From positions 1-35,033 of the forward strand of contig JAFAPI010000061.1 of the NCBI GenBank assembly GCA_019247195.1: a stretch of DNA of 35,033 nucleotides, in the 5' to 3' direction. The notes beneath the pieces were generated by a model. The model was not told where the DNA came from. It did no database searches and saw only the letters and a program-made list of their open reading frames with translations. This document shows, piece after piece, positions 18,674 to 21,600 of the stretch (position 1 is its first letter; every line of letters starts with the position of its first letter). The DNA comes from Gammaproteobacteria bacterium. Its GTDB lineage: Bacteria > Pseudomonadota > Gammaproteobacteria > Steroidobacterales > Steroidobacteraceae. The translations under genes and the position numbers were made by a program.

Positions 18674-21600
18674 GTGCGTGGGGCCAGGGCGGCAAGCTGG
18701 CGCAGCACGTACTGCAGGATGCCTCCGTGGCGGTAATACTCCCGCTCCTTCGGCGTGTCGATCCGCACGCGCGCCTTGAATTGCACCGGCTTCCCCTCCG
18801 GCGGCTGTGCGGTCACCGTGACCTCGCGCGTGCCGGGTTCACTGAGTCCGCTGATGTCGTAGAGCTCGCGGCCGCTCAGGCCGAGGCTGGCCGCGCTCTC
18901 GCCCGGCAGGAACTGCAGCGGCGCCACCCCCATGCCGATCAGGTTGGAGCGGTGGATGCGCTCGAAGCTCTCGGCGATCACGGCGCGCACCCCGAGCAGC
19001 AGCGTGCCCTTGGCTGCCCAGTCGCGCGAGGAGCCGGTCCCGTATTCGCGCCCGGCAAGGATGAGGAGCGGCGTGTGCTCCCGCTGGTATTGCATGGCCA
19101 CGTCATAGATGGAGCCCTGGGTGCCCTCGGGCAGATGCACCGTGACGCCACCCTCGATACCCGGTACCAAGAGATTCCGCAGCCGGATGTTGGCGAAGGT
19201 GCCACGCACCATCACCTCGTGATTGCCGCGCCGGGCCCCGTAGGAATTGAAATCCTGCGGTTGTACGCCTTGTGCCAGCAGGTACTGCGCCGCCGGGCTG
19301 CTGCGCGAGATGTTACCCGCCGGCGAGATGTGGTCGGTGGTGACGGAGTCTCCCAGCAGCGCGAGCACCCGTGCACCGCGCACGTCCGTGAGCGGCGCGG
19401 GCGTCATGGTCATGCCGTCGAAGTAGGGCGGATTCTTGACGTAGGTCGAGGCGGCGTCCCAGGCGTAGAGCTGACCAGCCGGCACCTTGATGTTCGACCA
19501 GTTCTCGTCGCCCTGAAACACACTCGCGTAGCTCTGCCGGAACATCTGCGAGTCGATCGAGCTGCGCAGCAGGTCCTGCACCTCTGCATCGCTCGGCCAG
19601 ATGTCGGCTAGAGAGACCGCTTTCCCGTCTCTGTCGGTTCCCAGTGGTTCGCTGCTGAGATCCATGTCTAGGGTGCCCGCCAGCGCGTAGGCCACCACCA
19701 GCGGCGGTGACGCCAGGAAGTTCATACGCACTTCCGGATGCACCCGACCTTCGAAATTGCGGTTACCGGAGAGCACCGAGCAGGCGGTCAGGTCACCGGT
19801 CTTGACTGCGGCCGAAATTTCGGGCTTCAGGGGCCCTGAATTACCGATGCAGTTAGAAACGCCCACACCGGCTGCGAAGAAAGCGTGCACGGGATGCACG
19901 GAAATGTCGAACACCTCTCGGCGTCCGACCTCGCGACGGTCAGTGACCGCGAGCGTGAAGGTGGGGAGTGTCAGCGCGTCCTTGGCGGCGCAGTACCGCT
20001 TCGGGTCCTCGGCCGAGCCGTCGTTATCGGCAGCGGCGAACCAATCGCGAACGCCCAGCTGTGAGAACAGCTCCGATGGAGATGGGAACTCGCAGCTGTC
20101 GCGGCGCAGGGGTCGGAAGCTTCGCCCTTTGAGACTCGGAAGTTTGCCGAACCGGTCATGTCCTTCGAGGAGCGAGTAGTGCGAAAAGAGAGGGGTCTCT
20201 TTTGATGTGAGTTCCGCAGCGGCAACCCGGCGCATGTCGGAAAATGATGATTCAGCGGAGGCGAGATGTAGCTCCTCCAAACGATCTGCCATCCAAAGGC
20301 GCTGCCGGTTGATCGTGTCGATCATGCGCCAGTAGACCGCAGCGGCACTGGCGCGCAACGTTTTGTCGACGCAGTAGCGGAATCCCACCCGTTCGACGAA
20401 GGAGAGTCCCTCCGGCAAGTTAAGCCGGATTTCCCGCCGGGGCACCCCATCCCGGGCCGCAGGATAACTGGACGCCGCATATCGTAGGGGGTAGTCGCGG
20501 ACGGTGGCGCCCCGCGCCTTGACGCCGCAGCGCACGAGCAGCCGCACGATCTCGGACATGAATGCCCGCGTGGCCTCGACGAACTCCGGCTTGCTGCTCT
20601 GCGAGTAGGCAGGTGGTATGAGACTCGCCGCGCCGGGTCGCTCTCCGTAGCGATGCAGGACCGGAGCATGGCCGTCGGAGCCGAACAGTCCGCCTAGGAA
20701 CTCGCGTACCACCGAGACTGGACAGTCTGCTGCCCGCAGGAATTCTGGCAGGGCAGGCGGCTGTTCGACGCGCCGCCCGATCCGCACGCCCGGCAGCGCC
20801 ACGATGGCGGTGGTTAGGGACCGTGGCAGCACGATGGTCCATTTGCGCGCGTCGTAGGCGGTCGCGAGCGGGCGGCGGCCGGTCAATCGCTCCACATCGG
20901 CAAGCACCGCTTGGCGATCCAGGGCTTGCCCGACGTGCATCCGTCCCTGTCCGAGCTTGCTGATCGATCCATCGCTGAGCAGGTGGCCCAGGAGGCGCGC
21001 GAAGGCGAGCATCTGCAGGCGTGTGGCGCTCGAGTCCATGGAGAAATCGAATTCTCCTGCGCGCAGACGAAAACCCACTTCATCCTCCGCGGGCTCGTCT
21101 ACCGGCGCTTCGAGCCCCATCACCACGCGGTCTTCGCCCAGCCGAAGTTGATCGGCACGCACCCACGTGCCGTCGGCACACATCAACTCATGCTCAGGAG
21201 TGCAGACAAGAGTGCGGCCGTCCTGCAGGGTCAGACAGATGCATTCGCGCTGGCCACGCGTCATGAGTTGGGTCTGCAGGGCCACGTTGCTGCGGCGCTC
21301 GGCGTCGGGTGCGAATACCGCAGTCCCCCCAAGCTCGGGAAAACGCTCGATGCGTTGCGCAGTACCGTCGGCCCGAAGCACCGCGGTCCCGGCTGCAAGG
21401 CAGGTAGTGCAGCCGTAACCGACCAGATCGAAGCCGATATTCGCCAGATCATCGAGCACCCCGGCTTTGCGGAGATAGTCCGTTACCACGCGAGAGCCCG
21501 GTGCAAGGCTGGTCTTGACCCACGGCTTGGCCTTCAGCCCCCGCGCTCGCGCCTTACGCGCCACGAGCCCCGCCGCGAGCATGACGGAGGGATTGGAGGT

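Follow-up and report, generated by a model that had tools for sequence, protein, structure and literature searches.

An apparent class-1 homing intein at an iron-sulfur cluster ligand of the aconitase AcnA in Steroidobacteraceae

How can a cell obtain working aconitase from a gene whose coding sequence is interrupted, at what appears to be a ligand of the iron-sulfur cluster, by an insert of 517 codons? The acnA gene in a 35,033-nucleotide stretch of DNA from a member of the Steroidobacteraceae (the window) raises this question. Its parts are as follows, with the cluster ligands placed by alignment and their role as ligands taken from general knowledge.

18673..22917, minus strand: acnA precursor ORF, 1415 aa, ATG at 22915-22917 and stop at 18670-18672; AcnA by NCBIfam
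21403..22917, minus strand: N-extein, 505 aa (residues 1-505), with the C-terminal end GYGCTT
19852..21402, minus strand: intein, 517 aa, starting CLAAGTAVL and ending GVGVSN, with a LAGLIDADG endonuclease
18673..19851, minus strand: C-extein, 393 aa (residues 1023-1415), starting CIGNSGPL
21607..21609, minus strand: first cluster-ligand Cys, residue 437, in ITSCTNTSNP (alignment to an IRP1/aconitase chain)
21409..21411, minus strand: second cluster-ligand Cys, residue 503, which is Cys(-3) of the junction
19849..19851, minus strand: third cluster-ligand Cys, which is Cys+1 of the junction
21400..21402, minus strand: intein Cys1 (block A)
21190..21201, minus strand: block B TPEH, with Thr68 and His71
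20968..20997, minus strand: first LAGLIDADG motif, RLLGHLLSDG, with Asp144
20671..20700, minus strand: second LAGLIDADG motif, FLGGLFGSDG, with Asp243
19870..19914, minus strand: block F VFDISVHPVHAFFAA, with Asp499 and His506
19852..19857, minus strand: C-terminal Ser516-Asn517 of the intein (Asn517 codon 19852-19854, residue 516 codon 19855-19857)

The precursor frame is uninterrupted, and the junctions are exact to the codon. Splicing is predicted to yield an AcnA of 898 aa (505 + 393; precursor 505 + 517 + 393 = 1415). An earlier note on this DNA had given the position of the intein (19852-21402), its 517 aa and the 898-aa product, and checked against codon positions all of them are exact. 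The exteins are AcnA, with scores of 1385 bits for NCBIfam NF006757 (cut-off 686) and 1329 bits for TIGR01341 (cut-off 945); the spliced protein would be full length and would hold Cys437, Cys503 and Cys+1. Genes for the methionine sulfoxide repair proteins MsrP and MsrQ, and for MnmA, lie near acnA, at window positions 16353-17941 and 22968-24107.

We consider it highly probable that the insert is a class-1, LAGLIDADG-bearing mobile intein resident in the [4Fe-4S] ligand motif of AcnA, and both splicing and homing are predicted. Matches to Pfam Intein_splicing (1.7e-5) and LAGLIDADG_3 (0.0042) are under the curated cut-offs, and so is that to NCBIfam TIGR01445 (3.8e-4). Since the family-model scores are mostly below cut-offs, the identification rests on the blocks, the allelic copies and the fold. 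In the usual naming of intein blocks (A, B, F, G), Cys1 opens block A (CLAAGTAVL); TPEH at residues 68-71 gives the TxxH of block B, whose Thr and His are both conserved to at least 90% among 10 rows from 9 genomes; and Asp499 and His506 stand in block F. At the penultimate position there is Ser516 and not His. A terminal Asn followed by Cys+1 is present at 14 of 14 readable C-junctions. The homing endonuclease is recognized by two LAGLIDADG motifs, each with an acidic residue (Asp144, Asp243), and a matching fold, and in the same 10-row alignment Asp144, Asp243 and Lys187 are at least 90% conserved. Alleles in these rows are 59-71% identical and inserted at the same codon. An AlphaFold model built from the 10 rows has a mean pLDDT of 57.9; it is confident mostly in residues 110-300 and poor outside the nuclease. 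Its best Foldseek matches are whole endonuclease-bearing inteins, namely TliVMA (1.1e-8), PI-SceI (4.2e-6) and PI-PfuI (4.9e-6); the structures matched are 7qsu, 1vde and 1dq3. Over the first eight matches the TM-score on the query reaches only 0.25-0.28, with half of the model being poor. The C-terminal 51 residues of the intein had no match among PDB sequences.

The position of the insert relative to the cluster was read from an alignment to the IRP1/aconitase chain 3sn2, in which the junction region is the GYG-x-x-T-C motif, with ITSCTNTSNP upstream. The 3sn2 chain has Ser at two ligand positions, which we take to reflect an engineered form. The three [4Fe-4S] ligands are presumably residues 437, 503 and 506 in human IRP1 and 435, 501 and 504 in E. 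coli AcnA. On these assumptions Cys(-3) would be the second ligand and Cys+1 the third, and the alignment bears out the earlier proposal of an AcnA intein that uses a cluster-ligand cysteine as its +1 residue. In the precursor, Cys1 of the intein takes the linear place of the third ligand (GYG-C-T-T-Cys1), so that the CxxC spacing is kept while the remaining fold is interrupted. We infer that the cluster cannot form in the precursor and that unspliced AcnA is inactive. The earlier claim that intein removal gates enzyme activity holds to that extent, as an expectation that the unspliced precursor should be inactive, and is here reduced to it; regulation is not part of it.

AcnB was not found in the window's genome, which is 92% complete, and the sole other PF00330 protein there is LeuC. 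Across the family, AcnB occurs in 4 of 200 genomes, all of one other genus. With no aconitase detected besides AcnA, the TCA cycle should require splicing and is probably conditioned by it, which strengthens the dependence of a central enzyme on splicing that had been put forward earlier.

Might the junction also sense the redox state of the cell? A disulfide between Cys(-3) and Cys1 under oxidation would block the first splicing step, and aconitase would be freed in a reducing cell. The precursor has a MoaA-like Cys(-3)/Cys1 pair because the junction stands on the ligand CxxC. MoaA is an iron-sulfur enzyme. According to two reviews, a Cys(-3)-Cys1 disulfide controls the Pyrococcus abyssi MoaA intein, holding splicing until it is reduced, and the two systems share an oxygen-labile host enzyme and a Cys(-3) able to bond Cys1 (PMC3922620, PMC10663303). 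They differ in host protein and in that P. abyssi is an archaeon; moreover, the redox trap is reported for MoaA, whereas for AcnA it would be a candidate mechanism. The N-junction reads C-T-T/C in 11 of 11 readable alleles, and a valve of this kind would act on the only aconitase detected. However, Cys(-3) would be kept anyway as a cluster ligand, and its conservation is uninformative on redox control; the patchy presence of the intein in close kin also shows that related species manage without it. We regard redox gating as unlikely. The MoaA parallel gives the earlier gating idea a concrete form, and the AcnA intein makes it testable whether inteins at iron-sulfur CxxC pairs serve as redox switches.

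Ordinary class-1 splicing, our preferred reading, would proceed as follows. Once translated, the intein would fold, Cys1 would attack the preceding Thr, and the N-extein would be transferred to Cys+1. Asn517 would cyclise, aided by the block-F His506 in place of the missing penultimate His, and an 898-residue AcnA with an intact GYGCTTCIGNSG motif would be released. Only after this release could Cys+1 take up its place as third ligand of the cluster. In DNA, acnA genes without the intein are presumably cut by the nuclease at this highly conserved site, with repair copying the intein gene in.

A penultimate His is usual in inteins but not obligatory, and the Synechocystis DnaE intein reportedly does without it, to go by the title of a paper. 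Among the readable alleles, 13 of 14 have His at this position, the window's intein with its Ser being the only exception. Three of the 14 have instead replaced the block-F His (Glu in G069, Arg in G043 and in G835), and none of the 14 readable C-termini has lost both histidines. From this small sample, a single histidine seems enough. Splicing of the window's allele could be slow. A stronger version, in which the loss of the penultimate His has left a splicing-impaired relic and the strain lives with little aconitase, strikes us as very unlikely. In its favour stands Ser516, found in the window's allele and in none of the 13 others that can be read, but block-F His506 is kept, inteins lacking the penultimate His are known (the Synechocystis case just mentioned), the frame and the other motifs are intact, and no aconitase besides AcnA was detected.

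How widespread is the element? The AcnA intein was found, as allelic copies, in 15 different genomes of three genera. At readable junctions, GYGCTT always precedes the intein and CIGNSGPL always follows it; 11 genomes have a readable N-junction, 14 have a readable C-junction, and 9 have both within one contig. By sample, it occurs in 10 of 58 genomes of the genus (genus 1) and, at E = 1e-45 or better, in 11 of 200 genomes of the family. A profile search of the order at 1e-20 gave 9 of 396 genomes, all of the same family, and one of the phylum gave 1 of 398, the window itself. Among the matches listed in a phylum sample of 329, no AcnA frame besides the window's exceeded 1250 aa. Eight other large AcnA frames (1028-1359 aa) were rejected as intein bearers: they are open frames running past an intein-less gene. 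Scanning 84,980 species with the window protein, by a pattern-based method that finds close relatives only, returned three metagenome records, VBMV01000060.1, JAFEDU010000001.1 and PLEC01000148.1, already within the 15 genomes. We rejected a viral, phage or plasmid origin, as no relative appeared in viral_contigs and, at E = 1e-5, phages and plasmids gave none either.

The same distribution disposes of a technical explanation, that two genes were joined in metagenome assembly or that this is a pseudogene: the window's genome is a 257-contig assembly, and in 6 of the 15 assemblies that carry the intein its sequence is broken off partway (in five because the contig ends, in G187 at a run of undetermined bases), but the same codon-exact junctions stand in one contig in 9 genomes with differing flanking DNA, contigs of 0.96 and 1.3 Mb are among those reading through, and the chance of a chimera, raised as a worry in the earlier note, is negligible. 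The six assemblies that break inside the intein are G187, G183, G043, G137, G836 and G838; perhaps they represent mixtures of intein-bearing and empty strains.

As an element, a class-1 homing intein is already known in kind. Like the AcnA intein, the Mycobacterium tuberculosis SufB intein has Cys1, Cys+1, a terminal Asn, an endonuclease and an iron-sulfur host, and it splices canonically; it differs in its 359 aa and in having the penultimate His (PMC8891592). SufB assembles clusters, whereas AcnA uses one. The best-scoring intein-bearing model for the AcnA insert is the intein-containing RtcB, NF038162, positions 95-497 of which align to insert residues 1-395 (4.8e-15), although its host is RtcB. 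None in 150 family genomes reached the NF038162 cut-off. At 1e-30 there were 13 that matched, and the matches listed fall in positions 1-95 and 578-961, which is RtcB without the intein part. An origin from an RtcB intein was rejected, as no intein-bearing RtcB was seen in these 150 genomes. The best solved structures by sequence are of the M. tuberculosis RecA intein PI-MtuI (2in0, 5k08), which match residues 1-99 of the AcnA intein weakly (E = 0.004-0.006). Two features appear to be new, namely that aconitase is the host and that a cluster ligand itself serves as the +1 residue; among the papers listed in searches of open-access literature none describes an aconitase intein, in line with the earlier note. 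Here the enzyme that carries the intein belongs to central carbon metabolism, the insertion is at a cofactor ligand, and no backup aconitase was detected in the genome.

Is the element maintained, and does it move? The splicing and nuclease parts are both under purifying selection: five pairs, compared over each of four segments, gave a dN of 0.12-0.29 and a dS of 1.05-2.44, one dS value being undefined and dS lying near or past saturation. Because dN is well under dS in the nuclease too, with the same caution on saturation, the nuclease is not decaying. The intein is patchy among close kin: between presence and absence, its state changes 7 times on an AcnA tree of 55 rows and 9 times on one of 100 rows. 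Third-position G+C is 73.7% in the intein and 84% in the exteins. The G183 intein is 71.5% identical to that of G001 and 64.7% to that of G175, while the exteins are 78.4% and 88.6% identical, respectively. G000 and G824 fall in one AcnA clade (SH-aLRT 96 and 94), and holding them together is rejected for the intein tree (AU 1.3e-71). These identities and the tree discord hint at transfer between genera. However, the tests allow all genus-1 inteins to form a single clade (AU 0.257 and 0.50), and a 9-row extein tree does not reject the intein's grouping (AU 0.216 and 0.14), and we did not retain cross-genus transfer since these tests fail to exclude the alternatives.

A mobile nuclease may leave traces in genes that lack it. 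We compared 100 AcnA, 10 with and 90 without the intein, from 48 of the 58 genus-1 genomes and, for 52, from other genera, the latter hand-picked and not random. Ten genus-1 genomes were left out, either because the N-half had no match or because the contig ended or had a gap ahead of the site. Also left out were G020, whose site escaped the motif search, and the additional AcnA-like copies in G151 and G169. Within genus 1, a clade of 16 (SH-aLRT 99) includes 7 genes that bear the intein; of its 9 empty genes, the site is altered in 7 and standard in 2. Six of the altered sites read CTS (one in GLGCTS, one also changed to NAG downstream), and one reads CQT. Altered sites thus occur in 7 of 9 empty genes inside this clade versus 8 of 81 elsewhere, where the other 73 are standard; the 8 comprise one GFGCTS, one GFGCTT and six CMT that all belong to a single genus. 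Parsimony places 5 of 8 site changes in the clade, whose share of the branch length is 11-12% (P = 0.0007-0.00095, in a test devised after the pattern was seen). The earlier 55-row tree, without seven far rows (three of them CMT), gives 6 changes. In the nearest pairs G175/G156, G824/G825 and G091/G188, an intein with a standard site stands against an empty gene with an altered one. Spread of one altered allele is unlikely because the Ser codons differ (AGC, AGT, TCA, TCG).

These data suggest that acnA genes have repeatedly become resistant to the homing endonuclease through changes in its target site. Several observations speak against this reading: the three empty genes of genus g10 nearest to intein bearers (G088, G143, G125) are standard, as are G198 and G199, and altered sites also occur in lineages where no intein was seen (g13, g18). 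Altered sites tend to change together with position -8 or -9, and a cause at the level of the protein, with residues -1 and -8 changing together, may also account for them. The case makes it testable whether hosts escape from a natural homing drive by change of a conserved site, with the enzyme still working. In a broader proposal, the ligand-pair splice junction would act as a redox valve controlling the single aconitase of the cell, while a natural homing drive would be aimed at the same ligand codons and met in relatives by repeated functional resistance (Thr to Ser or Gln at -1/-2). We consider this combination decidedly unlikely.

Other inteins came to light in the same family. With the intein as query at E = 0.001, 26 of 200 family genomes matched, its own included, and 15 of these had weak matches only (E = 2.5e-5 to 8.6e-4). 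By their translations, 5 of 6 weak-match loci fetched look like inteins of other proteins, and L023 reads ambiguously. Inteins of a DnaB-like helicase (three genomes), a UvrD/PcrA-like helicase and a DnaE-like polymerase were seen by translation at L012, L021, L022, L019 and L018, and at L020 (G069:C14:464000-471000) a dCTP-deaminase-like gene apparently carries two inteins in one frame.
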